A stretch of DNA of 64,000 nt, taken from the NCBI RefSeq assembly GCF_009912395.1, contig NZ_WNDO01000021.1, forward strand, positions 1 to 64,000. The letters run 5' to 3'. Below are positions 7,860 to 47,183 of this stretch, piece by piece. Numbering within the stretch: position 1 is the stretch's first letter; each line of letters starts with the position of its first letter. The position numbers and the translations under genes are program-made. The stretch is from Luteibacter sp. GTDB taxonomy: Bacteria; Pseudomonadota; Gammaproteobacteria; Xanthomonadales; Rhodanobacteraceae. The notes under the pieces were generated by a model. That model saw nothing but the letters and a program-made list of their open reading frames with translations, was not told where the DNA came from and made no database searches.

Positions 7860-8082
7860 CTCCCTGAGCGCATGCGTGCGTCGCGTCGAAGTATTGCGTT
7901 ACGCGAAGCATCCGGCAATGTGCCAGGGACGGCACGTCTGCCAAGCGACGAATGAATTCGCCGTAAACGAAATGCGAAAACGACGATCCAGCCGGCATTC
8001 GTTCATCCGAAAACTTTTGCGTTGTGACTAAGATCGTCTCGCCCCGTCCCCAGGGGCATCAACCAAAAGGAACAGGGATCAC

Positions 8083-8703: not shown

Positions 8704-8709
8704 TCCGCG

Positions 8710-8745
8710 GCGTGCCGGACGATGGCGCCCCATCGTCCGGCACGC
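8710..8745. terminator. Bidirectional hairpin between barrel gene and synthetase gene
   Basis: A perfect 16-base stem (8710-8725 with 8730-8745) and a 4-base loop lies between two convergent genes, 7 bases after one stop and 7 bases before the other. The symmetry and position fit a shared terminator, although neither side has a long T-run. Confidence 0.7.
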
Positions 8746-8751
8746 CAGCCG

Positions 8752-9560
8752 TCACTCTTCGTCAACCACCAGATCGCTCAGGCGACGCGCGGCGTCTGAC
8801 ACCGGCCCACGACGATCCGCTGCCGTCAGGGCATGCTCCAGCACCGGACCGATATGCCTGAGCGCGGGTCGCTGCATCATCTGGTGATGCTCGCAGGCGA
8901 CCTCGTGCACCTCGATGTCGCCGGTGATCACCCGCCCCCACACGCGAGGCGGAGGCGCCTTGCCCGCGTTGACCGTCGCCCGGAAGAACAGCATGTCGCC
9001 TTCGAAGGTTCGATGCCTGAAATCCAGGAGCAACCGTGGTGCAAGCTCGAACTGGGCGATGAATCGTTCGAAGAACGACTCGTCCAGGCTATCCCTGACC
9101 TGGTACATGCCGAAGTCTTCAAGATACTTCACCACCAGTGCCCGCATGTCGTCGTTCGTCGCTTCGGACGGTCCCTGCGCGATCGCCTTGCGAACGTCCG
9201 CTTCGTCGACGGGGTGGCTGTCCAGCATGGTCAGCAGCCCCACTTCCTCGCCTTCGTCCTGGAGTCGGGTCGCCATCGCATGGACAATGTGGCAGCCGAG
9301 GGACCAACCCAGCAGATAGTACGGTCCTTCCGATTGCACGCTGCGTATCTGCGCGAGGTAATCCTCCGCCATGGCCTCGATCGTCCCGGCCGCCCGCTCC
9401 GGCTCGCTCAGGGCACGCGCCTGCAACGCGTAGAGCGGACGATCCCGTAGGTGCGCCAGCAAGCTGGCGTACATCCATCCTGAGCCGCCGCCAGGGTGTA
9501 CGCAGAAGAGCGGACGACCACGCCCTGTCGAGCGCAATGGCAGGAGGACATCCAGCGCGC
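8752..9560 (-). other. NRPS thioesterase domain
   Basis: About 270 residues close the synthetase. The start [14 protein letters not shown], the nucleophile motif GWSLGC (Ser codon at 9301-9303), an acidic LDSHP and a late CEHHQ histidine make up a type I thioesterase catalytic set. It should release the peptide by hydrolysis or macrocyclisation. The Ser2 side chain would be one possible cyclisation nucleophile, but nothing in the sequence proves a ring. Only one thioesterase is present, unlike the tandem pairs of many pseudomonad lipopeptide synthetases. Confidence 0.9.
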
Positions 9561-12500
9561 CCCCACCCTCGATACGGTCGCCGCCCAGGTCGATGCGGGC
9601 GGCCATCGAGGCGAGCGTCGGTGCCTCGTACAACGACGCCAGGCTCAGGTTGCAGCGCAGTTCGTCGCGCACGAGGCTGAGCAGGCGTGTGGCCGACAAC
9701 GAATGCCCTCCCAGGGCGAAGAAGTCGTCGTGACGTCCTACCTGCTCTACACCGAGCAACGCCTGCCAGATCCCGGCCAATATCTCTTCCACGCCCTCCC
9801 GTGGCGCTTCGTAGCGCTCGCGGGCGTAGGCCTCGTCGTCCGGAACCGGCAACGCGCGATGGTCCACCTTGCCGTTCATCGTGAGCGGCAAGGCGTCCAG
9901 TACGACAAAGGCCGAAGGCAGCATGTAGTCGGGTAGCTCCTGCGCAAGCCGCGCACGCAGTGCCGCGACGGCGTCCGCCTGCCCCCAGGACCGCTCCAGC
10001 GTCACATAGGCCACCAGCCGCTTGATCCCTGCGCCATCCGGTATGGCGACGACGAAGGCATCCTTCACGGCCTCTTGCTCCAGCAGGCGCGACTGGACTT
10101 CTCCCAGTTCGATGCGGAAACCACGGATCTTCACCTGGCCATCGTTGCGTCCCAGGAAGACGAGGTTGCCGTCGGGCAGGTAACGCGCGAGGTCGCCCGT
10201 GCGATACATCCGCGCCCCCGGCGCATCGCTGAACGGATCGGACAGGAAGCGCTCCGCCGTCAATTCCGGACGGTTCCAATAGCCGATGGCCACGCCATCG
10301 CCGCCGATGAAGAGCTCGCCCACCGCGCCCGGTGGCACCAACTGGCCACGCTTATCCAGCAGGTAGGCCGTGGTGTTGGCGATGGGTCGACCGATCGGCA
10401 CGTTGTCCACGTCGTCCGCCACATGCCGCACGGTGTACGTCGTAGCATAGGTCGTGGTTTCGGTCGGGCCGTAGCAATGCACCAGTTGCAGATCCTTCGC
10501 CCCCGCGAGCAGATGGCGGAACGCCGAAGGCTCGGCACGTTCACCGCCGCACATGAGTACCCGCAGGTTCGCCAGCGCACGAGGTATCTCGCGCACGTAC
10601 TGATTGAAGATCGCCGTGGTGACAAACAGCACCGTGATTCCGGTTACCTCGATCGTCTTCGCCACACGGACCGGATCCAACAGCACATCGCGCGGAACGA
10701 CGACGAGGCAGGCGCCATGGAGCAAGGCGCCCCACACTTCCACGGTGCTCGCGTCGAAGGCCGGATTCGCGGCCAGGGCAAACCTGTCACTGGACGCGAA
10801 CTCCGCGTATCCGTTGTTGAGCACCAGCCGACTGATGCCACGCTGCGGCACGACCACGCCCTTGGGCGTACCGGTCGACCCCGAGGTGTACATGAGATAA
10901 GCAGGTGATGCCCCCGTCGTGGAATGGTCCACCAGCGCACCGTGGTCACCCGGAAACGCGTGTTGGTGAATGTCCAGGCTGGGCACCGATTGCCCATCCG
11001 GAGCAACATCGCCTTCGTCCACGAGAACCAGGCGCACCTCGCCATCGGCGATCATCCACAATTGCCGATCCGCTGGCGTTTCCGGGACGATCGGGAGGTA
11101 GGCAGCGCCACAGCGAAGTACGGCCAGCTCGGCGACGACCAGGGCGATACCCCGGCCTGCGCGGATCGCGATGACATCGCCAGGACCGGCACCATGATCG
11201 TGCAGGGCATGGGCCAGCACGTTCGAACGCCGGTCCAGTTCCGCATAGCTCAGCTGGATATCGCCTTCGACGATGGCCGGTGCGTCCGGTGCGCGGGCGA
11301 CCTGCCGGGCGAACAGCGCATAGAGGCCCTCATTCGCCGGATACGCGCGTCGGGTGGCGTTCCAGGTGTCCAGCAGGAGATCACGTTCTTTCTGCGGAAG
11401 AATCGCCAAGGTCCCAACAGGTTCGACCGACGCCACTTCCAGCGCCTCGGCCAGCGACTCCAGCGCGCAGCGCATGTAGCCACATATCGCCTGCGGACGT
11501 ACCGCCGATATCGCCTGTGCGGTGAGCCCCAGCGCATTCCCGTGATCCTCCACCGAAAGCACCAGCGGATAGTTCGTACGCTCTTCCGCGCTGAGCATTC
11601 GGATATCTGGGCCAGTTTCCTCGATCGACGGCGCCACGAATGGCGTGTTATGCCGGTAGTTCAGCAAGGTATTGAACAGCGGTGTCGGAGATCTCACCCC
11701 GCTGCAACGCTGTGCGAGGGCCAATGGCGCATGTTCGTGCTGCAGCAAGTCGGCGAGCTTGCGGTGGGCGAGCTTCACGCTATCCAGCACGGGCGTATCG
11801 TCCAGGTCGAGACGGATGGGCAGCGTATTGATGAACAGGCCCATCGCGCGGTCGGCACCGGCGCCGCCATGCATGCGCCCGAACAGCACCGTGCCGAACA
11901 CCGCCGTATCCTGCCCGCTCGTGCGTGCCACCACCTGGCCCCAGGCCAGGTGGCAAAGGCTGGCGAGGCTTACGCCATGGCGACGGGCCTGTTCGCGCAG
12001 GCGGCGGTTCAACTCGGGCGACAGTGGCTCGTGCCACTCCTCTACCGGCTCGCCTGGCGCGACCGTGCCGTCCAGTCCGAACGCCAGGCTGGCCGTGTCG
12101 ATGTCGCCCAGTTGCTCACGGAAATATGTCTCGTGGGCCGCCTCGCCAAGACCGAGCCTGGCTTGCGCCACGAGACCACGGAACGGCTGGGCCATCCCCA
12201 GCGTTTCCGCCTGGCCGGCGAGGATCGCCCTGATCTCCTTGAAGAGCACCTCCAGGCCCGAGTGATCCATGATCAGATGGTGCATGCTCTGCGCCACGAG
12301 CCAACGCCCCTGTTCCGCATCGTGAGCGACGTCGTAGCGAAGCAACGGTGCCTGGGTCAGGTCGATGCGATGGCGCGCAGGATCCACGGCCGCCATCAGC
12401 TGATCCATGACCGAACCATGCGCCGGGTCGAACGACCGCTCCGCCACCGGCAGCGTGGCTTTGCGCCACACCACCTGGGCCGGTTCGGGTAGGCGATCCC

Positions 12501-15500
12501 AGGCAAAGGCCGTACGCAGGATGTCGTGGCGGTCCACGACCTGCTGCACGGCAGACAGGAAACGATCCAACTCGGCACGGTCGCCAAACGACAGCAAGAC
12601 ACGTTGCAGGTAGGGATCGCCCTGCCCCGCCAGCTGATGGTGGAAAAGGATGCCATCCTGCAAGGGCGACAGGCCGTAGATATCCTGGATGTTGGCGACA
12701 CCTCCCGGCACCTTCGCCACGATTCGGTCGATATCCGCCTGGCCGAGGTCGATCAGCGGAAGCATCGCCGGCGTGATGGCATGAACGCCCTCGACGATGA
12801 GGTTGTCCGGCACCATCACCTCATGATGGCCGCCCAGCATGGCCGCCAGCTCGCGCAGGTTCGGGGCGGCGAACAACGCGCGCACCTCCATGGAAAGACC
12901 GACGCGACGCAGTTGCTCCATATGCTGCACCGCCAACAGCGAATGCCCGCCCAGAGCGAAGAAGTTATCGTTGCGGCCGACCTTCTCCACCTTCAGCAAG
13001 CCCTGCCAGATGCGGGCGAGTGCCTGCTCCACGGCCCCTTGCGGCGCTTCGAAGCGTTCGCGGACAAAGGCATCGCCATCCGGCACGGGCAACGCACGAC
13101 GGTCGAGCTTGCCGTTGGGCATCAAGGGCAAGGCATCCAGCACCACGTAGGCCGCCGGCACCATGTAGTCCGGTAGCGCGCGGCTGGCCGCCGTGCGCAG
13201 CGCGGCGACGAGGTCCTCACGCTGCGCTGCGGCCCGCGGTACGACATAGGCCACCAGGCGCTTTTCGCCCGCATCCTCACGGGCGAGCACGACCACGTCG
13301 CTCACCTCGGAATGTTCGGCTAGTCGTGCCTCGACTTCACCCAGTTCGATCCGATAGCCACGGATCTTCACCTGGTCGTCATTACGCCCCAGGAACTCGA
13401 GATTGCCGTCAGGCAGGTAGCGCGCGATATCGCCCGTCCGGTACATGCGCGAACCGGGTTCGCCATGGAACGGATCGACGAGGAACCGCTCGGCAGTCAA
13501 CGCCTGCCGGTTAAGGTAACCGCGCGCCACGCCATCGCCGCCGATGTACAGCTCACCTGCCGCTCCGCGCGGTACCGGCTGACCGAACCCATCCAGCAGG
13601 TAGATCCGGGTATTCGCCACCGGGCGGCCGATGGGGGCGATCGCCGTCGTCACGTCTGCGGCATGGCTCCACGAGGTGGCGTCGATGGTGGTCTCGGTCG
13701 GACCGTACAGATTGACCACCTTGTCCCACATCGCATTCGCACGATGTGCGTGTGCATCGAGCTTCAGCGGTTCACCACCGCAGAACAGCAAGCGCACACC
13801 ATCGATATCGCCGCACTGGAAGAACAGAGGCAGCATCGAGGGAATGAGCTGCACGATGGATATCGTGTGCTCGATCACATGCCGGTGCATCGCCGCCACG
13901 TCGCGCATCGCTTCGCGTGGCAATACCACGGCGGTCGCACCCACGAGCAGCGGTGTCCACAGCTCCCATACCGAGGCATCGAAGGCGATGGACGTACGCA
14001 GCAGGAAGACGTCGTGGGAGGTGAAGCCGAACCGACCCACCTGCCAGTACAGGTGATTGATGAAGTTACGATGCTCGACCATCACCCCCTTGGGCGTACC
14101 CGTGGAGCCGGAGGTATAGATCACATAGGCCAGATGATCGGCGCGCAACCCTTCGATGACTGGGTCATGGTCAGGTTGGCGATCCTTTTCGGACAACAGC
14201 GTATCGAGATCGAGATGCATGATATCCGCGAGCACCTCGTCGCCCAACGCTCGGCGCCCTTCATCGTCAGCGACGAGCAGGCGGGGGCCCGCATCGCGCA
14301 GGATCCGTCCCAGGCGATCCGCGGGATAGGCCGGATCGAGCGGCACGTAGGCTCCTCCGGCCTTGAGGATCGCGAGCAGTCCCACCAGCATGCCGGCACC
14401 ACGCTCCATGCACAGCGCCACGCGGTCATCCGGAACGACGCCCATGGCGATCAGTGTGTGAGCGACGCGATTGGCCGACGCGTTGAGCGTGGCGTACGTC
14501 ATCCGCGTATCGCCCGAGATCACCGCGACGGCATCCGGTGTACGGGCGGCCTGGGCCTCGAACATCTGGTGAATGCATTGGTCGCTCGGATAGTCGCTCC
14601 TCGTGGTATTCCAGTCTTCCAGGAGCAACCGCCGTTCGGCATCACCGAGCACATCGATGCGCCCAAGGGGCTGTTTGGCATCGGCGGCCATGGCGGTGAG
14701 CACGCGTAGCAGAGCCTCGCGATGGCGTTCCATCGTCCCCGCATCGAACAGTGCCGTCGCATAGCGCAACTCGCCCTGGAGCTGGCCGTCGCGCTCACCG
14801 ATGTTCAGCTCCACGTCGTACTTCGCCGGATTCCACGATGCCGTCAGGCTTTCGCGGGTGACACCGGGGAGCACGTCCTGCCCTTGATCGCCCGATTCCC
14901 AGGTCAGCATCACCTGGAAGATCGGGGTGTGGTCGAGATGACGCGGCGGTTGCACCACGTCCACCACCTGTTCGAAAGGCAGATCCTGGTGAGCCTGTGC
15001 CTGCAAGGCCACCTGCTTCACCTGTTCCAGCACGTCGGACACGCTGGGCGAGCCCGCCAGGTCGATCCGTAGCGCCAGGCTGTTGACGAAGAAGCCGATC
15101 AGGCCTTCGATCTGTGCATGACCGCGGTTGGCCGTGGGAATACCGATCACCAGATCGTCCTGCCCCGACAGCCGGCCCAGGACACTCGCCCAGGCCGTCA
15201 ACACGACCATGAACGGTGTAGCGCCATGGTCGTACGCGAGAGTTTTCAGGCGCGCGCTGGTAGAGGCATCCAAGCACACCGGCAAGCTCGCGCCGTCGAA
15301 GCTCTGCTGCGGCGGACGCGGCCGGTCGGTCGGCAGGGCCAGCAATACGGGAGCTTCGGCCAGCTGACGCTTCCAGTAGGCACGTTGCATCGCAAGCCGC
15401 TCACCCTGCAACCAACTCCGCTGCCACGCTGCGTAGTCCGGATATTGGATATCCATCGTCGGCAACGGATCATCGGCACCCTGCGTGAACGCCCGATAGA

Positions 15501-18500
15501 GCGAGGTAAGCTCCTGCGCGAGTACGCCCATCGACCAGCCGTCGGACACGATGTGGTGCTGCACGAGCACGAAGGCCTGGTCGTTCGCGCCCAGGGATAT
15601 CCAGTGGGCACGAATCAACGGTCCACCGGCGAGGTCGAACGGCGTGTCGATATCCTCGACGAACAGGCGTTGCAACGTGGATACCTGATCCGCGTCGCCC
15701 GTGAGATCGTCCTCGCGCCACGGCATGCCGCGCCCCGCATCGAGCAAGCGGACCTGGGGCTGGCCCTCGACGCTCACGAAGCGACTGCGCAAGGCTTCGT
15801 GGCGCGACCAGATGCGGTCCAGACTGCGACGCCATGCCGTTTTGTCCACCTGCCCACGCAGGCGAAGACCCAGCACCACATGATATGAGGCGCCGATATC
15901 GTCCATCTGCGACAGGAACCACAGACGCTGCTGGGCAAAAGACAAGGGAAGCGCGCCGTCGCGCGATATCGCCTCGATACGTGTCTGCACCCCGGATGCG
16001 GCACCCAGATGGCTCGCGATGGCGTCGGCAAGCTGTACCAGCGTCGGCGCGGTGAACAGCACGGGCAGCGGCAGTTCAATGCCGAACTGGGCCGGCAGAC
16101 GACCGAGCAGGCGAACGGCCAGCAACGAATGACCGCCGAGGATGAAGAAATTGTCGTGGCGACCGATCTTCTCCAGGCCCAGCAGATCCCGCCAGATCGC
16201 GGCCAGGGTCTCTTCGATCTGACCCTGAGGAGGCTCGTAGGCTTCCCGCGGGAAAGCCGAGTCGTCCGGCAACGGCAAGGCCTTGCGATCCAGCTTGCCG
16301 TTTGCCGTTAGCGGTAGCACATCAAGCGCCACGAAGGCCGACGGCACCATGTAATCGGGTAGCTGCTGACCGAGGTGTTTGCGCAAGGTCGGAATCAGCG
16401 CTTCGGCATCGCCCCCGTCCTGTGGCACCACATAAGCCACCAGACGCTTCTCGCCCGCACCGAACGCCCGTGCCACCACGGCTACGTCGCGTACATCGTC
16501 CCGTTCGCGCAAGCGGGCCTCGATTTCGCCCGGCTCGATGCGGTAGCCACGGATCTTCACCTGCTCGTCGTTGCGGCCCAGGTACATCAACTGGCCGTCG
16601 TGCAGGTAGCGCACAAGATCACCCGTGCGGTACATGCGTGCCCCGGCTACAGGGCTAAAGGGATCGGTCAGGAAGCGCTCGGCCGTCAGCTCCGGACGAT
16701 TCCAGTAGCCACGAGCCACCCCGATACCGCCGACATAGAGCTCACCCACGGCCCCCAACGGCACCGGTTGCTGGTGTGCGTCGAGCACGTACAAGCGCGT
16801 GTTCGCAATCGGTCGGCCAATGGATGGATTCGTGTCGCCCGGACGCACCGCGCCCGAGGTCGCCACCACCGTCGTCTCGGTCGGACCGTAATTGTTGGTG
16901 ACCTTCAGCGACGCTGGCAGCGATGCAGGCAAGGCATTCAAGCGATCGCCGCCGACCAGCAGGTGACGCAGGCCGGTCGGTAACCGGTCCTCCATCGCCA
17001 ATTGAGCCAACGGCGTCACAAGAAACGCGCTGTCCGTCGCCTGCGCGCTCCACCATGGCAACAGCAAGGCATGGTCGCGATTCGCCGCCCTGGGCGGCAA
17101 TTGCAGGGTCGCGCCACTGGCCAGCGCAGGCCAGATTTCCCACGCGCTAGCGTCGAAGGCCATGCCGGCCGTCGCCGTCGTACGCTGGCCGGGAACCAGA
17201 TCGAAGGTCCGCGCGTGCCAATCGATCAGGTTGGCGAACGAACGGTGTTCGACCATCACGCCCTTCGGCGTGCCGGTCGAACCCGAGGTATAGATCAGGT
17301 AGGCCAAGTGGCGGGACGTCAGCCCGTCCACCCGCGGATTCGTCGACGGTTGGGTGGACCATGCCTCCGGCGCATCCAACGCCAGGCAAGCGACATCGCC
17401 CAAGGCCTCGCGACCCGCCGCATCGGCCAGCAACAACGCCGGCTGCGCGTCGTTCAGCACGTAGTTCAGGCGCTCGCTCGCGTACGCGGGGTCCAGCGGC
17501 ACATAAGCACCGCCGGCCTTGAGGATCGCCAACAGTCCCACGACCAAGTCCACACTGCGTTCGGCGCAAAGTGCCACGCGAGCATCCGGCACCACGCCCA
17601 GCGTGATCAGCCGGTGCGCAAGACGGTTCGCCTTGGCATTGAGCTCCGAGTAACTGACCCACTCGTCGTCCAGTACCAACGCGAGCGCATCGGGATGACG
17701 CAGGGCCTGGGCTTCGACCAGCGCGTGGATGCACACGTCCTGCGCGAACACACGTTCCGTGGCGTTCCAGGTGTCCAGCAACAGGCGGCGTTCGGCAGCA
17801 GGGAGGATCGACAACTCCCTCGCCGGCTTGCCTGGGTTCTGTTCCAGCGCCTCGGCTAGGCTCTCCAGCGCCGTATGCATGTAAGCGCCGATAGCGGCAG
17901 GTTCGAGGGGATGGGCCGCCTGTACCGTGAGGCCCAGGGCATCGCCATGGTCTTCGACCGAGAGCACCAGCGGATAGTTGGTGCGCTCTTCCGCCGAAAC
18001 CACCCGGATATCCAGGCCATCGTCCACGGTGGCCTCTGCCGCCAGCTCGCGATTGTGCCGATAGTTGAGCAGTGCGCTGAACAGTGGCGCCGGCGCCTCC
18101 ACGCCACTGCAACGCTGGGCGAGCGCCAGTGGCGCATGTTCGTGCAGGAGCAGGTCGGCCAGCTTGCGATGGGCGTGTTTCAGGGCATCCGTCACCGACG
18201 TGCCATCCATGTCCAAACGGATCGGCAAGGTATTGATGAACAGGCCCATGGTGCGGTCGGCGCCTTCGCCGCCGTGCATACGCCCGAACAACACTGTGCC
18301 GAACACCGCGGTCTCCTGCCCGCTCGTGCGTGCCACGACCTGGCCCCAGGCCAGGTGGCAAAGGCTCGCCAGGCTCACGCCGTGACGGCGGGCCTGCGTA
18401 CGCAGGCGCTCGTTGAGCGACGCGGGCAGGCCCTCATGCCATTCCGCGACCCGCTGGCCTTCGCCGTGCACCTCCACCATGCCGAACGGAAGGCTCGGTG

Positions 18501-21500
18501 TATCGACATCGCCCAACTGTTCACGGAAGTGGTTTTCGTGGTCCCGCTCGCTCAGGCCAAGGCGCGCCTGGGCGATGAGGTTGCGGAATGGCAAGGCCGC
18601 GCCCAAGCGTTCCGCGTGACCGGCAAGGATCGCCTTCACCTCGCCCAGCAAGACCTCCAGGCCCGAATGGTCCACGATCAGGTGATGCATCCGCTGCACG
18701 ACGTACCAGCGATCGTCGCCGGCATCTTGGGCGATGTCATAGCGCAGCAGGGGTGCACGGGAGAGATCGACGCGATGATGCGTCGGGTCGACACTGGCCA
18801 TCAATTGGGCGGCGACAGGACCCGTCGCCGGGTCGAACGCCCGCTCCGTCACCTGGAGCGTGGCCTTGCGCAGCACGACCTGGGCCGGCTCTGGCAAACG
18901 GTCCCAGAGGAAGGCCGTACGCAGGATGTCATGGCGGTCCACCACCTGCTGCACGGCAACGAGGAAGCGGTTCAACGCCTCGCGCTCACCAAACGAAAAC
19001 AGCACGCGTTGCAGGTACGGATCGCCCTGTTCCGCCAGAAGGTGGTGGAACAGGATGCCGTCCTGTAACGGCGACAAGCCATAGATGTCCTGGATGTTCG
19101 CCACGCCGCCGGGCACCTGCTCGACGATCCGGTCGATGTCCGGTTGCGACAATCCGATCAGCGGAAGCATGGCAGGTGTGATCGCCCGCGTATCCCTGTC
19201 GATCCGGTTGGACGGTACCGCTACTTCGTGGTTGTCGCCCAGCATGGCCGCCAGCGCGCGCAGGCTCGGCGCGGCGAACAGCGCACGCACCTCCAGCGAC
19301 AGTCCTTCGCGGCGTAGCCATTCCATATGTTGCACGGCAAGCAACGAATGGCCGCCCAGCGCGAAGAAGTTATCGTTGCGACCCACGCTCTCCACGCCGA
19401 GCAGTTCCTGCCAGATGCGCGCCAACGTTGCCTCGATCTCGCCGTCGGGAGCTTCGTAACGCTCGCGCACGAAGGCCTCATAGTCCGGCGCGGGCAAGGC
19501 CTTGCGATCCAGCTTGCCGTTGGGCGTCAGGGGTAGCGCGTCGACGGGCACGAAGGCCGACGGCAGCATGTAATCGGGAAGCGCATGACCAGCATGGGTA
19601 CGCAGGTCGGCGGCGAGGTCGCCGCGATTCGCTCCGTCACGTGGCACGACGTAGGCCACCAGGCGCTTGCCGCCGTGGCGATCGTCCAGGGCGACCACCG
19701 CGACATCGCGCACGTCCGCATGCTCCAGCAGACGCGCCTCGATTTCGCCCGGCTCGATACGATAGCCGCGGATCTTCACCTGCTCATCGTTGCGGCCCAG
19801 GTAGACCAGGTTACCGTCCGGCAGGTACCGCGCCAGATCGCCCGTGCGGTACATCCTCGCGCCCGGCACCGTGCTGAACGGATCGACCAGGAAGCGCTCC
19901 GCCGTCAGTTCCGAGCGATTCCAGTAACCCCGCGCCACGCCATCGCCACCGATATACAGCTCGCCCACCGCGCCCAAGGGCACTGGCTGCCGATAGGCGT
20001 CGAGCAGGTAGAGACGTGTATTGGCGATCGGCCGGCCGATCGGCACCACCTCCGTTTCCTCGCCGGTGGCCTCGTAGATCGCGCAACCGACCACGGTCTC
20101 GGTCGGGCCGTATTCGTTGACCATGCGGATGCCGGGTTGCAGGCGTTTCCAGTCAGCCACTACCGATGGCGGCAGCGCTTCGCCACCGATCACCAGCAGA
20201 TCAATACGGCTGGACGCACCGCGTGCACGCAGACCTTTGCCAAGCAGGTCGAGATGGCTCGGTGTGATCTTGACCAGGCCACCCTGCGCCTGCACCTGCG
20301 TTTCCAGTTCGTCGATCTCCCGTCCCGAACCGAGCAGCAGGACTTCGCCGCCACTGACCAGCGGCACGATCAGGCTGGTGACGGTCGCGTCGAAGGCCAG
20401 CGACGACGATACGGTCGCCCTGCCCGGCGCGTACGTCTCGATGGCCCAGTACAGGTAGTTCACCGCGCCGCGATGCTCGATCATCACGCCCTTGGGCGTG
20501 CCGGTCGAACCCGAGGTGTAGATCATGTAGGCCAGGTTCCGCGAGGTGAGGCCCAACACGACCGGGTCCGTCTTCGGGTGCTCGTGCCATGAGGCTTCAT
20601 CCTCCAGCGCCACGTGCGACAATGTCGACGGCACCGGATCGAGCACATCGCGCCCCTTCCCGTCGCAGAGCAACAAGGCAGGCTCGGCATCACGCAACAT
20701 TTGCGCGAGACGATCGCCTGCATATGTCGGATCGAGCGGCACGTAGGCGCCACCAGCCTTCATGATCGCCAGCAGGCCCAGCACCATGCCGACGCCACGC
20801 TCGGCGCACAGCGCCACGCGGTCGTCGGGGTGGATGCCTCGTTCGATCAGTGCGTGGGCCAGCCGGTTGGCGCGGGTGTTGAGTTCGGCATAGCTCAACC
20901 GCTCTCCTCCCGCGATCAACGCCAACGCGTCCGGCGTACGGGATACCTGGTCCTCGAACAATTGATGGACGCAGGTGTCTTGGGGATAGGCGCGCGCCGT
21001 CGTATTCCAGGTATCGAGCAACAAGTGCCGCTCATCGGCAGGCAGGATCGACAGTTCACCGACCGGCCTATCCGGCGTGGTATCAAGCGCCATCGCCAGG
21101 CTTTCCAGCGCCACCTGCATGTATCCGCAGATCGCTTCGGGGCGCAGAGGCGATACGACCTGCGCCGTGAGGCCCAAGGCATCGCCATGGTCTTCCACCG
21201 ACAAGGTCAGCGGATAGTTCGTGCGTTCCTCGCCGCCGATGACTTCGATGCCGAGATCGTCATGCTCGACCGCGTCACCGTCGATGGGACGGTTATGCCG
21301 GTAGTTCAGCAACGCGCTGAACAACGGAGCGGGAGCCTGCACACCGCTGCACCGCTGGGCCAGGGCCAACGACGCATGCTCGTGCTGCAACAGGTCGGCC
21401 AGCTTGCGATGGGTACGTTTCACGCTCTCCAGCAGCGGCGTGGCGTCGAGGTCCAGGCGGATCGGCAAGGTATTGATGAACAGGCCCATGGCCCGATCCG

Positions 21501-30500: not shown

Positions 30501-33500
30501 TCGGCACGAAGGCCGACGGCAGCATGTAATCAGGGAGCGCCTGGCTCAGACGGGCACGCGCATCGGCGACGACGTCGTCCGCATCGCCGCCGTCGCGCGG
30601 CACGATATAGGCCACGAGCCGTTTGCCGCCCGCACCGTCGCCAAGGGCGATCACCGCTGCATCCCGCACGGTCTCCTGTGCCAGCAGGTGCGCCTCGATC
30701 TCGCCCGGCTCGATGCGGAAACCGCGGATCTTCACCTGCTCGTCGTTACGACCCAGATAGACCAGGTGGCCGTCCGGCAGGTAGCGCGCCAGGTCGCCCG
30801 TGCGGTACATCCTTGCGTCGGGCGTCGTGCTGAACGGGTCGCGCAGGAATCGCTCCGCCGTCAGTTCGGGACGGTTCCAGTAGCCACGCGCGACGCCGGC
30901 ACCACCGATGAACAGCTCGCCCACGGCGCCCAGCGGTACGGGCTGCTGGTGGTCGTCGAGCAGGTACAGGCGCGTGTTCGCGATCGGCCGACCGATCGGC
31001 ACCGTCGCCGTCTCCTCGCCCGTGGCTTCGTAGATCGCACAACCGACCACGGTCTCCGTCGGGCCGTATTCGTTGACCATGCGGATGCCGGGTTGCAGGT
31101 GCTTCCAGTCGCCGACCACCTGCGGTGGCAACGCTTCGCCGCCGATCACCAGAAGGTCCACGTTCGACCGCGCGCCGCGTGCCCGCAATCCCTTTCCCAG
31201 CAGGTCCAGATGGCTCGGCGTGATCTTCAGCAAACCGGCGTCGTCGCCGACCAGGGCATCCAACTCGTCGATCTCGCGTCCCGATCCCAGCAGCACCACT
31301 TCCGCGCCGCACAGCAAGGGCACGATGAGACTGGTCACCGTCGCGTCAAAGGCCAGCGAGGACGATACGGTGGCCCGTCGCGGCGCATACGCCTGAACAG
31401 CCCAATGCAGGTAGTTCACGGCCGCCCGGTGCTCGATCATCACGCCCTTGGGCGTACCGGTGGAACCCGAGGTGTAGATCATGTACGCCAGGTGATGCGA
31501 CGCCAGGCCGTGGACCTGCGGGCGGTCTCCGGAAAGCGCCGACCAAGGCGTATCGTCGTCCAGGTCAACCACACCGAGGCCCTCGGGCAAGGCGCCGAGG
31601 CTCGCGCGCCCTTCCCTGTCGTGAACGAGCAGGACAGGTTGTGCGTCGACGAGCACCTGCGCCAAGCGCTCGCCCGCATACGTGGGGTCCAATGGCACGT
31701 AGGCGCCGCCGGCCTTCAGGATCGCCAGCAGGCCCACCACCATGTCCACGCCGCGCGCCACGCACAAGGCCACGCGGTCGTCCGGACGTATGCCGCGATC
31801 GACCAGGTGATGCGCGAGGCGGTTCGCGCGAGCGTCGAGGTCCGCGTAGCCAACCCGCTCCTCGCCAGCGATCAGGGCGATGGCGTCGGGTGTTCGCGTC
31901 ACCTGCGCCTCGAACATCCGATGGACGCAGGTGTCCTGCGGATAGTTCCTGTCCGTCGCGTTCCAGGTGTCCAGGAGCAGTGTGCGTTCCTCGTCCGGAA
32001 TGATCGCAAGATCGCGCACGGGAACGGTCGGCGCCGTCTCGAGCGCCGTTGCCAGGCTCGTCAATGCGCGGTGCATATAGGACGCGACCGCACGTGCATC
32101 GAGCGGCCGCACCACCTGTACCGTCAGGCCCAGGCTGTCGCCGCCATCTTCCACCGATAGCGTAAGGGGATAGCTGGTACGTTCTTCCGCACTCAGCAAC
32201 TCGATACCCAACTGGCGAATCGCGTCCAGCCCGGCACCCAGGTCGCGGTTATGGCGATAGTTAAGCAAGGCGCCGAACAACGGCGCCGGGGCCTGCACGC
32301 CACTGCAACGCTGGGCCAGGGCCAGCGAGGCATGTTCGTGCTGCAACAGGTCGGCCAGCTTGCGGTGCGTGAGCTTCACGCTATCCAGCACCGGCGTATC
32401 GTCCAGGTCCAGCCGCAGGGGCAAGGTGTTGATGAACAGGCCCATCGCACGATCGGCGCCTTCACCGCCGTCCATGCGCCCGAACAGCACCGTGCCGAAC
32501 ACGGCGATGTCCTGTCCGCTGGTCCGCGCCACGACCTGGCCCCAGGCCAGGTGGCACAGGCTCGCCAGGCTGACGCCATGACGCCGGGCCTGCTCGCGCA
32601 GGCGCGCGTTAAGCGACGCCGACAGCGTTTCGCGGAACTCGTCCACGCCCTCGCCATCGCCATGCACCTCGCCAAACCCGAAGGGTAGGCTCGGCGTATC
32701 CACGTCGGCCAATTGTGTACGGAAGTACGTCGCATGAACGTCTTCCGAGGTACCCAGGCGCGCCTGTGCGATCAGCTGCCGGAACGGCAGGGCCGGTGCG
32801 AGAACTCCCTCACCACCGGAGAGGATCGTCCGCACTTCGTCGAAAAGGATTTCGAGCCCCGAATGATCGCTCGCCAGATGATGCAGGCGAAGCGCGACAT
32901 GCCAGCGATCATTCTCGGCATCGTGGGCGACGTCGAAACGTAGCAAGGGTGCGCGTTCAAGGTCGACCCGGTGATGGCGCGGATCGACACGCGAGACCAG
33001 CTGCGCACCGATCGAACCGTTCGCGGGATCGAGCTGCCATGTCGTCACCTCGACCGTGGCGTGACGCCACACGACCTGGGCCGGCTGCGGCAGTTGGTCC
33101 CAGACAAACGACGTGCGCAGGATGTCGTGCCGATCGACGACCGTTTGCACGGCAGCCAGGAAGCGATTCAGCAGATCCTCGTCCGCCATGGCCAGTTCGA
33201 CCAGGAGCATGTACGGATCGCCCTGCTTCGCGATCAGATGGTGGAAGAGGATGCCATCCTGCAACGGCGACAGCGCGTAGATATCCTGGATATTGGAGAC
33301 GCCGCCAGGCACTTTCGCGACGATACGATCGATGTCCTCTTGCGCAAGGTCGATCAACGGAAGCATCGAAGGCACGATAGCCGCGGCATTTGGTCCGATA
33401 CCGTTCACAGGCACGGCGATTTCATGACCCTGCCTGAGCATGGCAGCGACTTCGCGCAGGTTCGGCGCGGCGAAAAGCGCCCGCACTTCCAGCGACAATC

Positions 33501-36500
33501 CTTCGTCTCGAAGCCGTTCCATGTGCTTCACGGCAAGCAGTGAGTGGCCACCCAAGGCAAAGAAATTGTCGTTACGCCCTACCCGCTCGACACCCAAAAG
33601 CTCTTGCCACAGTGTCGCGAGAAGCTCTTCCATAGGACCCGTAGGCGCTTCATAGACTTCTCGCGCATAGGCACTGTCGTCCGGTGCGGGAAGCGACTTG
33701 CGATCCAACTTGCCGTTCGGCGTCAGCGGTAGCACGTCCAGAATGACGAAGGCCGATGGCACCATGTAATCGGGAAGTCGCTGTGCGAGCTGCGCGCGTA
33801 TCGCCTCAAGAGTAGCGTCACGATGCATGTCCTTGTGCAGCACGATATAGGCGACGAGGAACTTTCCGCCCGAAGCATCTCTTGCGACCACCGCCGCATC
33901 GCGAATGCTGCCGTGCTCAAGCAATCGACCTTCTATTTCACCCAGTTCGATGCGAAAACCACGGATTTTTACCTGGTCGTCGTTGCGTCCCAGATAGACG
34001 ATGGTACCGTCCGGAAGATGCCTTGCGAGGTCGCCCGTGCGATACATCCGCGCGCCCGGCACGTTACTGAATCGATCGGACACGAATCGTTCCGCGGTGA
34101 GGTCCGGTCGATTGAGGTACCCTCGCGCCACCTGAACGCCGCCAATGTACAGCTCGCCTACCGCACCCTGAGGTACCGGCTGGGCAAAGGCATCCAACAG
34201 GTAGATCGATGTATTGGCGATGGGCTTCCCGATGGGGATATTGTCCGGTAGCTCGCTTCCTTCGCATGGCCACGCCGTGACGTCGACGGCGGCCTCCGTG
34301 GGACCATAGAGATTATGCAGCGCGACCGAAGGCAGCGCCTGGCGGAACTTCCTCGCGAGCGCGCCCGGGAGCGCCTCGCCACTGCACATGACATGGCGCA
34401 GGGTTGGCAGACCATCCGCCTTGCCGCTATCGACGAAGAGCTGAAGCATCGACGGAACGAAATGCAGGATGGTGATGCCATGCCTGCGAATCGCCTCGGC
34501 CAGGTAAGACGGATCCTTGTGCCCTTGCGGACGCGCCATCACCAGGCGAGCGCCATGCAGCAATGGCCAGAAGAACTCCCACACGGACACGTCGAAGCCG
34601 AACGGTGTCTTCTGCAGTACCGCATCCGCCTCGGTGAGCCCATAGGCTTCCTGCATCCAGAGAAGCCGATTCACCACACCACGGTGTTCGTTCATCACCC
34701 CTTTGGGGCGCCCTGTCGATCCGGAGGTATAGATCACATAAGCGAGCGCGGAGGGATCGAAACCCGGGACGACGGGGTTAAGTGGCGAGCGGTGCCCCCA
34801 CGGCCTTGAAGGATCGTCCAGTTCGAGCACCGCCACCTGGGGAGACAACGACAACGTGCCATGCAGGGCGGCTGTCGTAAGCAGCACCTGCGGGGCGCTG
34901 TCCTCCAGCATCCATTCAAGGCGATCCACCGGATAGGACGGGTCTAGCGGCACGTAGCCGGCACCCGCCTTCAGCACGGCCAGCAGACCCACCACCATAC
35001 CTACACTGCGCTCCGCGTACACGGCGACGCGGGCGTCAGGACCCACGCCTTTGCTCGCAAGCTCATGCGCAAGACGATTCGCTTCCGCATTGAGCCACGC
35101 ATACGTCACCTGCTCATCGTCCGCGACGACGGCGACGATATCCGGCGTACGTTCGGCCTGCGCCTCGAACCGCTGGTGGATGCCGAGATCGGTCGGGTAC
35201 GTACGCTCCGTTGCATTCCACGCGGTCAACAGGCGCGCGCGTTCTTCCCTCTCCAGGATATCGATGCCACCTACCGCCTGAAGCGGGTCAACCGACATCG
35301 TGTTGAGCACGCAGAGCAAGGCATGGCGATGTCGTTCCATCGTCTCGGCATCGAACAAGGCCGTGGCGTAACGCAGGTTGCCTTCCAACCTCCCCTCACG
35401 CTCACCGAGGTTCAGCTCAATGTCGTACTTCACCGGCATCCATGGCACGTCCATGGCCTGGCCTTGAACACCCTGGACATCCCATTGACCGATCACATCG
35501 TCATCCCAGGCCAGTAGCACCTGGAAGATCGGCGTATGTTCAAGGTGGCGCGGCGGCTTCACCGCTTCCACCACCTGCTCGAAAGGCAGGTCCTGATGAA
35601 CCTGCGCGTCCGCCGTTACCCGACGCACGCGATTCAGCAACGTGGCGACGTCTGGACGTTCCGACAGGTCGATTCGCAGGGCAAGGCTGTTGACGAAAAA
35701 GCCGACCAGAGATTCGGTCTGGACATGACCTCGGTTGGCACCGGCAATACCGATGACCAGATCCTCCTGGCCCGAGAGCCTGGCCAGTACGGAAGCCCAC
35801 GCGGCCAGCACGCCCATGAACAGGGTGGCGCCGTGGTCCTGCGCGAACGTTTTCAGACGCCGAGTGGCCGCCTCGTCCAGCGACACCGGTACGCTGGCAC
35901 CGTCGAAGCTCTGTAGCGGCGGGCGCGCCCTGTCCGTGGGCAATGCCAGCAGGACGGGAGCATCGGCCAATTGTCGTTTCCAATAAGCCGACTGCTCCGC
36001 CAGACGCTCGCCGTGCATCCATGCACGTTGCCATGCCGCGTAGTCGGGATACTGAATATCCAGCGAAGGCAGCGGGTCGCCCCGGTCTTCCCGGAAGGCG
36101 GCATATAGGGCAGACAACTCCCTCAGCAACACGCCCACCGACCAACCATCGGAAACGATGTGATGCTGGGTCAGCAGGAACGCATGGTCGTCGTCTGCCA
36201 GTTCGATCCAGCGCGCACGCACGAGCGGACCTACCGCCAGATCGAAGGTCGCGCTCCCTTCTTCCTGGTGCAACCGACTCAGCGCAGCGGACGGGTCTTG
36301 CTCGCCACGCAGATCGTCTTCGCGCCACGGCATGCCCTGTCCAGCAGGAAGAAGGCGCACCTGGGGCGTGCCACCCACGCTGACGAAATGGCTGCGCAGG
36401 GCTTCGTGGCGTGCCCATACCGTATCCAGCGCGCGACGCCACGCCGCCTTGTCCAGCGATCCGCGAAGCCGCAGGCCGAGGGGGATGTGATAACTCTCGT

Positions 36501-39500
36501 TATGCTCGTCGAGTTGCGCGAGGAACCACAGGCGCTGTTGGGCGAACGACAAGGGCAGCACGGCGTCGCGCGACACGCTCTCGATCGTCGTCGAGTCGTA
36601 TCGTGCCCCGGCAAGACGCTGCGACACGGTTTCGCCCAGCCCGGCCAGCGTGGGTGCGGCAAACAGGGCGGACAGCGGAAGCTCGATCTGGAACAGGGAC
36701 GGTAGACGACTCAGCAGCCTGACGGCCAGCAATGAATGGCCGCCCAGTGCGAAGAAATCGTCATGCCGCCCGACCCGATCGACGCCCAGCAATGCCTGCC
36801 ATGTCGCGGCCAGCGCTTCTTCGACGTCACCTGACGGCGCTTCGTAACGCTCACGGGAAAAGGCATCGTCGTCGAGAGCGGGCAACGCGCGACGATCCAG
36901 CTTGCCGTTGGTCGTGAGCGGCAGCGCGGCCAAGCGAACGAACGCGGACGGGACCATGTAGTCCGGCACGTGTCGACCCATGCGCGTACGCAGCGTAGGC
37001 ATCGTGGCATCGGCGTCGATACCGTCTCCCAACACCACGTAAGCGACAAGTCGCTTCTCGCCCGCCGTCGGCACGTGCGCGACGACGACGGCGTCGTTTA
37101 CCTCGTCCAACCCTCGCAGCGTCGCTTCTACGTCGCCCAGTTCGATGCGGAACCCGCGGATCTTCACCTGCTCGTCGTTGCGTCCCAGGTAGGCCAGCCT
37201 GCCGTCTGGCAGGAAGCGCACCACGTCGCCCGTGCGATACATCCGTGCCCCCGGAACCCGGCTGAACGGATCGGCGAGAAAGCGTTCGGCCGTCAGTTCC
37301 GGTCGCCGCCAGTAGCCACGCGCCACGCCTGCGCCACCCACGTAGAGCTCGCCCGTGGCACCCGGCGGTACGAGCCGCCGCTGGGCATCAAGCACGTATA
37401 CGCGTGTATTGGCGATGGGACGGCCGATGGACGGCTGTATGTCGCCCGCCTCGACGACACCGGAGGTCGCCACCACCGTCGTTTCCGTGGGGCCATAGTT
37501 GTTGGTCAGTCGTATATGCGCCGGCAACGAGGCAGGCACGTCGGCGAGACGATCGCCACCCACCAGCAGATGGTTCAGGCTCGACGGCAACGTACCGTCC
37601 ATCGCGAGCTGGGCCAGCGGCGTGACAAGGAAAGCGCTGTCCACCGGCTGCTCACGCCACCAGGGCAACAGCATGGCGGGATCGCGGCTGATCCGCGACG
37701 GTGGCAGGTGCAGCGTGACGCCGCTGGCCAGCGCTGGCCAGAGTTCCCACGCGCTGGCGTCGAAGGCGACACCCGCGGTGGCCGTGCTGTGCTGGCCCGC
37801 CGCGAGGCCGAAAGTCTCCGCGTGCCAGGCAATGAGGTTGACGAACGTACGATGCTCGACCATCACGCCCTTGGGCGTGCCGGTCGAACCGGACGTGTAG
37901 ATCAGGTACGCGAGATCGCCCGGAACCAGGCCAGGCACCTGCGGATCGCTCGCCGGCCATGCGGAGCCGAGTGTGACGTCATCCAGGGCGAGGCTGCCCG
38001 CACCCGCGGCGCCCATGGCCTGTCGGCCTGCGACGTCGGCCAGTATCGCGGCAGGCTCGACATCGGCGAGGGTCTGTTCGAGGCGATCGGCAGGATAGGC
38101 GGGGTCCAGGGGAACGTAAGCGGCGCCGGCCTTCAGTACGGCGAGCAGCCCGGTCACCAGGGCCACACTGCGTTCCGCGCAGACGGCTACGCGATCGTCC
38201 CGCCCTACGCCCAGATCGATGAGATGGTGCGCAAGGCGGTTGGCCTGCGCGTTCAATGCCGCATAGCTGACCTGCTCGTCGCCCCGGACAAGCGCGAGCG
38301 CATCCGGATTCCGTGCCACCTGCTCCTCGAACAAGGCGTGGATGCAGCGAGCGGTGTCGTATGCCCGCTCCGTGGCGTTCCAGGTATCGAGCAAGAGGTG
38401 TCGCTCTTCGGGCGACAGCAGCGTCACCTCGTTTGCAGGCGCGTGCAGATCGGTCGATGCGCTGGCAAGGTAATCCAGCAGCCGATCGGCATGGCGCGCT
38501 ACCGATACGTCGTTGAAGACGGATTGGTTGAAGCGAAGCTCCAATCCCATCGGCGCGTTTCGACCGAACTGCGTGAAAAGGAAAGACAGACCTGCCTGCG
38601 GGCCGCTCAACCATTTCAGGTGGGCTGGCTCGCCGCCGAGTTCCAGGCTGCGCTTCAGGAAAAGCGTGTTGACGCTGACATCGACGTGGCGCGGATCGAG
38701 TCCATGGTGACGGACCAGCTCACTGAACGGATAGCGCCCGTGAGCCATCACGTCACGGAACATGCTGGCCGACGCGCCGATGCGCGCGCCGATCGTATCG
38801 CCACCGGCGGAGGACAAACGCAGCGGAAGCACTTTCGCGAACTGCCCGAGGGTATCGAGCATGTCGCGTGTACGGTTGAGGTAAGCCACGCCGATGACGA
38901 TCTCGTCTTCACCGGCCATGCGTGCCAGGTACATGGCCGTGAGCGCGGTCAGGCACTCCGAAGGCGTAACCGACGCCTCGTCGGCGAGCCGCTGGATGGC
39001 GGCCTGCAACTCGGGCGACAAAGTACGCGTGACCGACGCGACACGGAACGGCGTACCGATGGCGTGCGGGCGATCGGCCAGCACCGCGAGAAGCGACGTC
39101 TCCGGAAGCCCCGCCAGGTCGTGGTGCCAGAAAGCGCCGTCCTCCGTATAGGTCGCGGAATCCTCATAAGCCAGGTCCAACGCCAGGCTGTCGAGATAAT
39201 GGCGGTCCAACGTGAAACGATGGGATGGATCGCGCGCCAGCAGGGCGTAGTTCTTTGCCAGGTTCTCGGCCGTGCGCAGGGTCGTCCAGCCATCGGTCAC
39301 CAGGTGATGCAGGCGCCAGACGACCCACGACGTGTCCGCCCAGTGGAACACGGCCGCGATGCCCTGCATGTCGATGTCGGCGATGAGGTCGCGATGCCAC
39401 TGGCGAACGATCTCGGTACGTGCATGTTCGTCGGCAATCGATTCATTGACGAAATTCGCCCGCGTCGTCATTGGCGCTGTCGACTGACGTTGCCAGCCGG

Positions 39501-40437
39501 CATCGTTCCATTGGAGCCAGAATGCCTGGTTCTGCGCGATCACCGCGTCGACGGCCGCTTCCAGCCATCCGCGATTCACCGATGGCCCACAACGCAACAC
39601 CGATATCGTCTGGTAAGAGCTTCCCGGCGTCGCCTGTTCTTCGATCCAGATGGCCTTTTGTGCGGTCGAAAGCGGGTACCAGGCGCCCGGATCGCTCCGG
39701 CCAGGCAAGCGATGCCCGACACCGGGCTGATCGGCGGCTGTCCACGTTTCGTTGCTCAGCCGCCATAGGTCCTCGACGCGGGTGTCGGGGGCATCCAACG
39801 CCGCCATCGCGAACGAAACGTACAAAGCCCCCAGGCTCTTCGCCGATGCCTCGTCGAAGAGACGTCCGTCGTAAACCACCTCGAAAGACAAGCCGTCGTC
39901 GCCCTGCTGCACGCAGATGGCGAAATCGACGCCGGTTGGGATCACCGCGCCGCCGTCCGTCGACCACGAAAAGAACACCTGGAAGATGGGATGATGCGAG
40001 GTCTCCGTATCCAGCCCCATGGCGGCAACTTTGTCCTCGAAAGGCAGGCCGGCGTGATCGCGAGCCCACCGCGAGGCCTGCTCCGACTGTTCCCAGCATG
40101 CGCGTAGGGATGACGATCTCTCGACACGGTAAGGCAACACATCGATCTCGTCGCCTCCGTTGCCATCCGCACCGATCACGATGTCCCTGCTCGCCGCCAG
40201 TGTCGCGCAAAGCGCGGCGAAGCTGCCCGCCATGATCGCGAAGGGCGCCACCGCGCCGGACGTCGAAACATGGGTCAGCGCGTCCAGAAGGCCCGATGGG
40301 CAGGCTATCGCGCAACGCGACAGGCCGGTGCCGGCGCGCAGGGAGCGCGGACGGTCGAACGGAAGGTCGATGCGTACCGGCTGGCCGGCAAGATGCGCGC
40401 GCCAGGCGCGACGAAGCTCAACGAGACTGTCGTTCAT
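8752..40437 (-). CDS. Nine-module non-ribosomal peptide synthetase with terminal thioesterase
   Basis: One gene of 10,561 codons assembles a peptide on carrier arms in the cytoplasm. Nine adenylation (A) domains each carry a YTSGSTG core, nine carrier (T) domains a GGHSL site. Condensation types are: half C plus C* (module 1), C (2, 8), dual E/C (3, 4, 6, 7, 9) and tandem C-C* (5). The end is a type I thioesterase with GWSLG; its Ser is residue 10,379. Codes read by aligning to GrsA suggest Leu, Ser, Asn, Ile-like, Leu, Asn, Leu, Gln, Ile-like. Residues 2, 3, 5, 6 and 8 should be D because a dual E/C follows them. I chose ATG 40437 because GGAG lies 10 bases upstream; a TTG at 40527 in frame adds 30 residues without homology. 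The window shows no MbtH, exporter or regulator. The product is not recognised. Confidence 0.97.
9561..12765 (-). other. NRPS module 9: dual E/C, A (branched-chain, uncertain), T
   Basis: HHQLAGQGD and HHLIMDH mark a dual E/C domain acting on residue 8. The A domain is a sister of that in module 4, with code D-A-V-F-M-G-C-T-Y, closest to branched-chain codes but not matching a reference exactly. The carrier domain has its own ending ([13 protein letters not shown]) and leads into the thioesterase. Confidence 0.75.
12766..15953 (-). other. NRPS module 8: C (LCL), A (Gln), T
   Basis: The C domain starts [12 protein letters not shown] and contains HHIVSDGWS, closely resembling module 2. The A domain code reads D-A-W-Q-F-G-L-I-D, which matches the Gln-type code used in pseudomonad lipopeptide synthetases; Glu cannot be fully excluded. 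The carrier is of the pre-E/C type. Confidence 0.8.
15954..19170 (-). other. NRPS module 7: dual E/C, A (Leu), T
   Basis: HHLLAEQGD and HHLIVDH mark a dual E/C domain acting on residue 6. The A domain has the same Leu code as modules 1 and 5 and is almost identical to that of module 5 up to the carrier serine. After GGHSLLAV the carrier switches to the RLLGRLP type that precedes ordinary C domains, so Leu7 should stay L. Confidence 0.85.
19171..22410 (-). other. NRPS module 6: dual E/C, A (Asn-like), T
   Basis: HHLLAEQGD and HHLVGDH mark a dual E/C domain acting on residue 5. The A domain repeats the module 3 code D-A-T-K-V-G-E-V-G and is nearly identical to it over long stretches, including [18 protein letters not shown]. 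The prediction is Asn, with Asp less likely. The carrier is of the pre-E/C type. Confidence 0.8.
22411..26899 (-). other. NRPS module 5: tandem C-C*, A (Leu), T
   Basis: This is the longest module. A complete C domain starting [10 protein letters not shown] with HHAVTDGV (near 26510) is followed directly, with no carrier between them, by a second C-like domain starting [10 protein letters not shown] with HHMVYDGW (near 25150), and then by a Leu-type A domain (D-A-W-F-L-G-N-V-V). The second domain is closely similar to C* of module 1. The carrier domain is of the pre-E/C type, so Leu5 is expected to become D. Confidence 0.85.
26900..30126 (-). other. NRPS module 4: dual E/C, A (branched-chain, uncertain), T
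   Basis: The first motif is HHMMAEKGD and the second HHLIIDH, so this is a dual E/C acting on residue 3. The A domain belongs to the [12 protein letters not shown] type, with code D-A-M-F-M-G-V-T-Y. The closest known codes are Ile types such as D-A-F-F-L-G-V-T-F, but two or three positions differ. Its carrier domain has a third style ([11 protein letters not shown]) and leads into the tandem-C module. Confidence 0.75.
30127..33365 (-). other. NRPS module 3: dual E/C, A (Asn-like), T
   Basis: The condensation domain has the extra N-terminal motif HHLIAKQGD, the HH[I/L]x4GD hallmark of dual epimerisation/condensation domains, and HHLASDH at the main active site. It should epimerise residue 2 and condense it. 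The A domain code reads D-A-T-K-V-G-E-V-G, nearest the Asn code D-L-T-K-L-G-E-V-G; Asp codes usually have His at the seventh place. It is nearly the same as module 6. Confidence 0.8.
33366..36561 (-). other. NRPS module 2: C (LCL), A (Ser), T
   Basis: The C domain starts [12 protein letters not shown] and carries HHIVSDGWS, the ordinary L-to-L condensation signature. The A domain code reads D-V-W-H-M-S-L-V-D, one or two conservative changes from the known Ser code D-V-W-H-L-S-L-I-D. The carrier domain has the HMERLR continuation that precedes dual E/C domains, so Ser2 is expected to be epimerised. Confidence 0.85.
36562..40437 (-). other. NRPS module 1: half C, C*, A (Leu), T
   Basis: Residues 1-250 match only the C-terminal lobe of a condensation domain: the DLPFDRPR and HPIFQVFF landmarks are present, and the HHxxxDG lobe is absent. 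A complete C-like domain (C*) follows, from [10 protein letters not shown], with an intact HHLVTDGW near 39300. The A domain code reads D-A-W-F-L-G-N-V-V, the classic Leu code. T1 ends in the RLLSRLP type that precedes ordinary C domains. Confidence 0.8.
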
Positions 40438-47021: not shown

Positions 47022-47183
47022 GCTGCGATACCGTGCCCCCGAAAGCCGCTTTCCAGCGAGAGTACCCCACTTTCGGTGTGTGTGCGGAATCGGCAATGTG
47101 GCTTGCGAAACCATCCTCGCTCCCATCGGGTCGACGGGCTTGCTCGCCCTCGACCGATATAACGCGAATGGACGGCTTTCCCC

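Follow-up and report, generated by a model that had tools for sequence, protein, structure and literature searches.

What does a nine-module nonribosomal peptide synthetase (NRPS) make when its fifth module carries two condensation domains? A single gene of Luteibacter sp. raises this question. It lies at 8752..40437 on the minus strand of the stretch that we analysed (positions 1 to 64,000 of contig NZ_WNDO01000021.1, 64,000 nucleotides, hereafter the window) and encodes nine adenylation (A) domains, nine thiolation (T) domains, ten full condensation (C) domains, one half C domain and one thioesterase (TE). A first-pass annotation of the same DNA had predicted a strictly collinear nonapeptide. 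Our observations concern the domain order, the A-domain codes, the motifs, the phylogeny and the conservation in a second species, Luteibacter anthropi. From the sequence we consider it likely that the enzyme is a double chain-initiating synthetase, predicted to make a two-tailed lipodepsipeptide in which 3-hydroxyacyl-Leu-Ser-Asn-Ile is esterified to 3-hydroxyacyl-Leu-Asn-Leu-Gln-Ile.

A second starter-type condensation domain within the line

Positions 8752-40527 of the minus strand form a single open frame of 10,591 amino acids when counted from a TTG, or of 31.7 kb when started at the ATG at 40437. The ATG is the likelier start codon, because a GGAG lies 10 bases upstream of it and because L. 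anthropi shares the GGAG, the ATG and the first codons. The region upstream of the gene (40438-41040) is also conserved with this species (74% in a match of 810 bases, gene start included). The frame contains nine copies each of the adenylation motifs A3, A6, A7 and A10, nine T motifs and one TE, which confirmed that a nine-module line is encoded by one gene of more than 31 kb. Further frames with C domains are present on contigs C2, C54 and C55 of the same genome (6028, 2432, 2468 and 2185 amino acids, among others).

The stretch between T4 and A5 measures 897 amino acids, versus 460-481 in modules 2, 3, 4, 6, 7, 8 and 9, because it holds two C domains, C5a (25597..26937; HHAVTDG) and C5b (24283..25596; HHMVYDG). 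C5b is directly preceded by C5a, giving a C-C-A-T module. The corresponding stretch of module 1 measures 679 amino acids and consists of about 230 residues of a truncated C domain followed by C1s (38428..39747). The first-pass annotation had overlooked both the tandem and the half domain. C5b is 55% identical to C1s, versus 24-27% over part of the length to the other C domains of the window. Its nearest solved chains were VibH, the starter C domain of RzmA (rhizomide), EntF and CDA-C1, whereas those of C5a were domains of Txo1, Txo2 and DhbF, and C5a was taken as an elongation-type domain. Two starter-type C domains, C1s and C5b, are thus carried by one assembly line. Both Luteibacter species retain HHxxxDG in C1s, C5a and C5b, and the ratios of nonsynonymous to synonymous substitution (dN/dS) between the two species (0.16 for C5a, 0.13 for C5b) indicate purifying selection, as in the other domains computed.

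When genome contigs were scanned by pattern with C5b and C1s as queries, four loci were retrieved, in L. anthropi (85%) and, at 49-53%, in Burkholderia arboris, Burkholderia stagnalis and a Paraburkholderia. In L. anthropi, the gene (10,573 amino acids) has the identical 30-domain order, half domain and tandem included, and its codes match those of the window except for one residue in A4. The genes of B. stagnalis, of a B. arboris plasmid and of the Paraburkholderia read C-A-T-dual-A-T-C-Cstarter-A-T-C-A-T-TE. This is the published architecture of the icosalide synthetase, whose cluster has been reported in B. stagnalis, and the residue order of icosalide is Leu-Ser-Ser-Leu, according to the part of the source available to us (PMC9581180). 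Of the 11 icosalide-type loci that we read outside Luteibacter, eight encode a complete line of four modules within a single frame, and each of these (L011, L012, L036, L051, L054, L055, L056 and L057) had the codes Leu-Ser-Ser-Leu; outside this count are L010, which is cut by contig ends, L052, which is split over two frames, and L053, which has two modules. The last, a frame of 2828 amino acids with the order C-A-T-C-Cstarter-A-T-TE and codes for Leu and Leu, appears to be a smaller double chain-initiating synthetase. Because the domain models applied to these relatives derive from the domains of the window, their labels are relative to the latter.

The relationships between the C domains were then assessed by phylogeny. 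In a tree of 35 C domains from five lines, C1s and C5b of both Luteibacter grouped with the second domains of the tandems (support 100/100) and C5a with the first (100/99). A second tree covered ten lines with 37 domains; it leaves out 14 rows of the former (11 dual domains and three icosalide-type C4) as well as every domain of L010, L056 and L057. Here the second-of-tandem domains and both C1s formed one group (100/99) and the first-of-tandem domains, C5a included, a separate group (100/100), while a third (100/100) contained the eight N-terminal starters from lines outside Luteibacter. These N-terminal starters were only weak 'LCL' matches by model and were placed by the trees instead. Long-branch warnings concerned the joining of dual with first-of-tandem domains in the 35-domain tree and of N-terminal with internal starters in the 37-domain tree, and the deeper joins were not used. 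C1s joined C5b in the best tree with a support of 80/66, which suggests, but does not show, a duplication inside Luteibacter. A1 is 70% identical to both A5 and A7; the A domains alone do not pair module 1 with module 5, because A5 is closer to A7 (85%) than to A1.

Predicted product and alternative explanations

The substrate codes were read by eye from a nine-row alignment of the A domains, using the GrsA residue mapping and the substrate meanings that we take to apply; the tenth letter, K, is an assumption. In order, they correspond to Leu (A1, DAWFLGNVVK, 36865..38400), Ser (A2, DVWHMSLVDK, 33673..35232), Asn (A3, DATKVGEVGK, 30436..31983), an Ile/Val-like residue (A4, DAMFMGVTYK, 27196..28743), Leu (A5, DAWFLGNVVK, 22717..24243), Asn (A6, DATKVGEVGK, 19477..21027), Leu (A7, DAWFLGNVVK, 16258..17784), Gln (A8, DAWQFGLIDK, 13072..14628) and an Ile/Val-like residue (A9, DAVFMGCTYK, 9832..11379). 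In a many-row alignment, A3 and A6 of both Luteibacter genes were shifted by one column and gave L or V where the nine-row alignment gives K. A4 and A9 are predicted to accept a branched aliphatic residue, Ile or Val.

The motif HHxxxxxGD of dual epimerisation/condensation (E/C) domains is present in C3 (31990..33420; HHLIAKQGD), C4 (28750..30180; HHMMAEKGD), C6 (21034..22464), C7 (17797..19224) and C9 (11392..12819), and because these open modules 3, 4, 6, 7 and 9, the D configuration is predicted at residues 2, 3, 5, 6 and 8. C2 (35233..36609) and C8 (14629..16002), which are 66% identical to each other, are elongation (LCL-like) domains. The line ends in a single TE (8755..9549; GWSLG; Pfam Thioesterase, 4.9e-34). 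These data supported, as predictions, the residue order and the D positions given by the first-pass annotation, which had also been right about the single gene. Its predicted product did not stand: since module 5 consists of the elongation-type C5a followed by the internal starter C5b, a second fatty acid is predicted between residues 4 and 5, and a strictly collinear nonapeptide is no longer expected.

We propose that C1s would place a 3-hydroxy fatty acid on Leu1, and that modules 1-4 would build acyl-Leu-Ser-Asn-Ile on T4. Independently, C5b would place a second 3-hydroxy fatty acid on Leu5 at T5. C5a would then transfer the tetrapeptide to the 3-hydroxyl of this second acyl chain, forming an ester, after which modules 6-9 would carry the chain on through Gln8 to the Ile-like residue 9. 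Release of the product would be the task of the TE, most likely by closure onto the 3-hydroxyl of the first fatty acid to give a large macrodiolide. Icosalide is reportedly released by this kind of ring closure, and the second acylation, the ester and the ring closure are all proposed on the icosalide model. The part of a review available to us describes the internal starter of the icosalide synthetase as acylating its own aminoacyl carrier, so that two chains are initiated on one protein, and reports that in vitro this starter acylates the next Ser (PMC8949500). Prediction from the sequence extends to the residues, the acyl chains and their hydroxyl groups lying outside it. For chain pairs taken as C8/C8, C8/C10, C10/C10 or C12/C12, a cyclic two-tailed product would have an [M+H]+ of about 1293.80, 1321.83, 1349.87 or 1405.93, respectively, and its linear form 18.01 more, versus 1151.70-1207.77 for a cyclic product with a single C8-C12 tail; residues 4 and 9 count as Ile/Leu in these values, and each Val would lower them by about 14.02.

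Several observations count against this double-initiation scheme. The first C domain of the tandem has HHxxxDA in 11 of 11 loci outside Luteibacter, versus HHAVTDG in both Luteibacter, and C5a may therefore catalyze a reaction that differs from the icosalide type. HHxxxDA is a correlate seen in our set, not a known criterion of the double chain-initiating class, and might have to do with ester formation. HHxxxDG is retained by the internal starter in 10 of these 11 loci; that of L051 has no HHxxxD[GA] by pattern, indicating that the motif is not invariant within the family. Among the 31 window frames outside the NRPS, Pfam recognised no gene for fatty-acid activation, for an acyl carrier or for polyketide synthesis. 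The ring closure is proposed by analogy only. Finally, a fold model of the C5a-C5b tandem had a mean confidence of 48.8, too poor to test the tandem, and was left unused.

We considered the possibility that C5b is a silent leftover, that C5a performs an ordinary amide condensation and that the product is a plain acyl-nonapeptide. This would fit with the canonical HHxxxDG of C5a, which sets it apart from the first C domain of the tandem in icosalide-type loci, and with the orphan half domain of the same gene, which indicates that non-catalytic parts of C domains can persist. Yet the catalytic motif of C5b is kept in both species, its identity between them (84.7%) and its dN/dS of 0.13 are like those of other domains, and it groups with the internal starter of icosalide-type lines. 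We therefore regard a silent C5b as improbable. If C5b were active but started a separate chain, as the presence of a starter in each half of the line might suggest, two unjoined products would be formed, a lipotetrapeptide and a lipopentapeptide. Against this, C5a is intact and conserved and falls in the tree with the first-of-tandem domains of icosalide-type lines, and T4 is not followed by a release domain, making this explanation very improbable indeed. The draft state of the genome (56 contigs) and the breakage of the adjoining TonB gene over two frames could point to an assembly artefact or a chimeric join, but we dismiss this, as L. anthropi has the identical 30-domain order, half domain and tandem included, in a diverged sequence.

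A role of C5b as a beta-hydroxylase interface domain was set aside, as C5b keeps HHxxxDG and matches starter domains among the solved chains. An alpha-ketoglutarate hydroxylase partner had no Pfam match among the 31 window frames, which were scanned without an interface-domain profile.

The half condensation domain and the neighbouring genes

The protein begins with an orphan half domain (39748..40428), whose approximately 230 residues before C1s match solely the C-terminal half of a C domain, the best match within the window being C5a (35%, 127 bits). By alignment it is devoid of the N-lobe that carries HHxxxDG, and the segment with MVGxFVN in C5a is missing as well. In both Luteibacter, the half domain matched Luteibacter C5a best (31.6-38.1%), followed by the icosalide-type C3a (30-32%). 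The layout of module 1 is thus that of module 5, C-Cstarter, except that its first C domain is halved. Between the window and L. anthropi, the half domain is 59.0% identical, whereas the other 29 domains are 76.2-94.9% identical, and its dN/dS is 0.27 versus 0.08-0.16 in the ten other domains computed. It evolves faster than the other domains and is still constrained by purifying selection. We infer that it has a non-catalytic structural role, though it could also be a leftover in slow decay.

In an AlphaFold model of the half domain with C1s (six alignment rows), the mean confidence was low (57.7), and the half domain reached at least 60 in 17 of its 23 ten-residue blocks; a PDB search with this model was used solely to name entries. 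In both species, about 1.9 kb upstream of the start was searched by tblastn with seven queries for remnants of the lost N-lobe or of an upstream module, and all matches had E values of at least 0.1.

Upstream of the NRPS, on the same strand, are genes for a TonB-dependent transducer (42518..45399; plug, STN and barrel by Pfam), a FecR anti-sigma factor (45448..46455; Pfam) and an ECF sigma factor (46458..47126), all probable cluster members, the last on the basis of the comparison with L. anthropi only. On the other side lies a gene for a LysE-type transporter (4510..5160, plus strand). Among 23 Luteibacter genomes, the TonB barrel was found in three at E 1e-80 (the window's own, L. anthropi with 80% and one at 44%), FecR in four at E 1e-60 (the window's own, L. 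anthropi with 86% and two at 43-46%) and LysE in two, both carriers of the NRPS. Close TonB, FecR and LysE neighbours were thus confined to the two NRPS-carrying Luteibacter, and L. anthropi keeps the order PhzF, ECF sigma, FecR, TonB transducer, NRPS, LysE. These genes probably travel with the NRPS line. Roles in uptake, sensing and export of the product are a guess, LysE being a possible exporter.

The TonB gene of the window is in two overlapping frames (plug, 44215-45399; barrel, 42518-44332), whereas plug and barrel are in one frame in L. anthropi; the split may be a real mutation or a draft error. A RidA-like gene and a GNAT gene (41152-41811) lie between TonB and the NRPS, and frames 8059-8733, 6624-7859 and 5168-6448 between the NRPS and LysE. 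The 53 kb that we read in L. anthropi contained no match to any of these five. An omptin-family outer-membrane protease (3452-4423, plus strand) also had no match in the L. anthropi stretch read. A penicillin-amidase family acylase (54522-56993, plus strand), encoded some 14 kb away from the NRPS, might remove acyl groups from lipopeptides or signals.

One might combine these elements in a broader scenario, which we find rather doubtful as a whole: the halved C lobe would be kept as a non-catalytic cap needed by C1s, both initiation sites would be copies of one tandem module, and the product would be sensed or recovered by its own TonB-FecR-ECF system, switching the synthetase on.

Distribution and comparison with known systems

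A model of the tandem-type starter matched two of the 23 Luteibacter genomes at E 1e-40, the window's own and L. anthropi. At E 1e-60, it matched four of 65 Burkholderia genomes (27 candidates scored per genome) and nine of 398 genomes in a sample of the Burkholderia family, three of which are common with the Burkholderia set. In samples of the order (299 genomes), class (369) and phylum (398), the window's own genome was the sole match at E 1e-60, with the top 4-6 candidates scored per genome, as in the family sample; such drawn samples can miss carriers, L. anthropi being absent from the order, class and phylum matches. Among plasmids, the tandem retrieved 570 records, and B. arboris (48.7% over 98%) was the sole close match among the best 15 of these. 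In viral contigs, 40 stretches fitted the pattern, and no relative was confirmed among them.

In the portions available to us, the literature on Luteibacter and lipopeptides, queried by terms other than the residue order, contained no peptide of this kind. A query joining Luteibacter with icosalide returned no paper, nor did one on tandem condensation domains plus two further terms.

The Luteibacter line does not fit a conventional single-starter cyclic lipopeptide synthetase, with one N-terminal starter and no tandem C domains. Viscosin/massetolide-type synthetases of Pseudomonas also make nine-residue products starting with Leu and have a starter C domain and several dual E/C domains. They are, however, encoded by several genes and contain a single starter domain. 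Most Pseudomonas lines end in a tandem TE, according to the part of the review available to us, versus a single TE in Luteibacter (PMC8949500).

Among the solved chains, the starter C domain of RzmA is the closest to C1s and the second closest to C5b, though we take the RzmA starter to be N-terminal only. At position 148, RzmA has Arg, versus Thr in C1s and Val in C5b as counted from HHxxxDG, and these residues may leave room for a medium acyl chain. In the part available to us of a study on RzmA, its starter acylates a Leu mimic and the mutation of R148 to Ala opens its acyl pocket (PMC7804268).

The closest likeness is to the icosalide synthetase (IcoA/IcoS) of Burkholderia gladioli and relatives. 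Both are encoded by a single gene, with an N-terminal starter C domain, an internal tandem C-Cstarter module, dual E/C domains and one TE, and their tandem pairs fall in the same tree groups. In contrast, the Luteibacter line has nine modules instead of four and codes for Leu-Ser-Asn-Ile/Leu-Asn-Leu-Gln-Ile instead of Leu-Ser-Ser-Leu, so that it is not the icosalide synthetase itself. Unlike in the latter, the N-terminal starter of the Luteibacter line is an internal-type domain preceded by half a C domain, and its first tandem C domain has HHxxxDG instead of the HHxxxDA of icosalide-type loci. The marks of double chain initiation in a conserved nine-residue line of another bacterial family point to a new and far larger variant of the icosalide kind. 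Lines that start with two fatty acids are rare and known from icosalide, a small antibiotic of Burkholderia; the Luteibacter synthetase would take this design outside the Burkholderiales and from four to nine amino acids. The evolution suggested by its architecture is that the tandem C-starter module is a unit able to become a new N-terminal start by losing half a domain. The predicted compound is concrete and its mass can be predicted, and the two-, four- and nine-module lines provide a natural comparison set for inserting a second lipid tail in engineered peptides.

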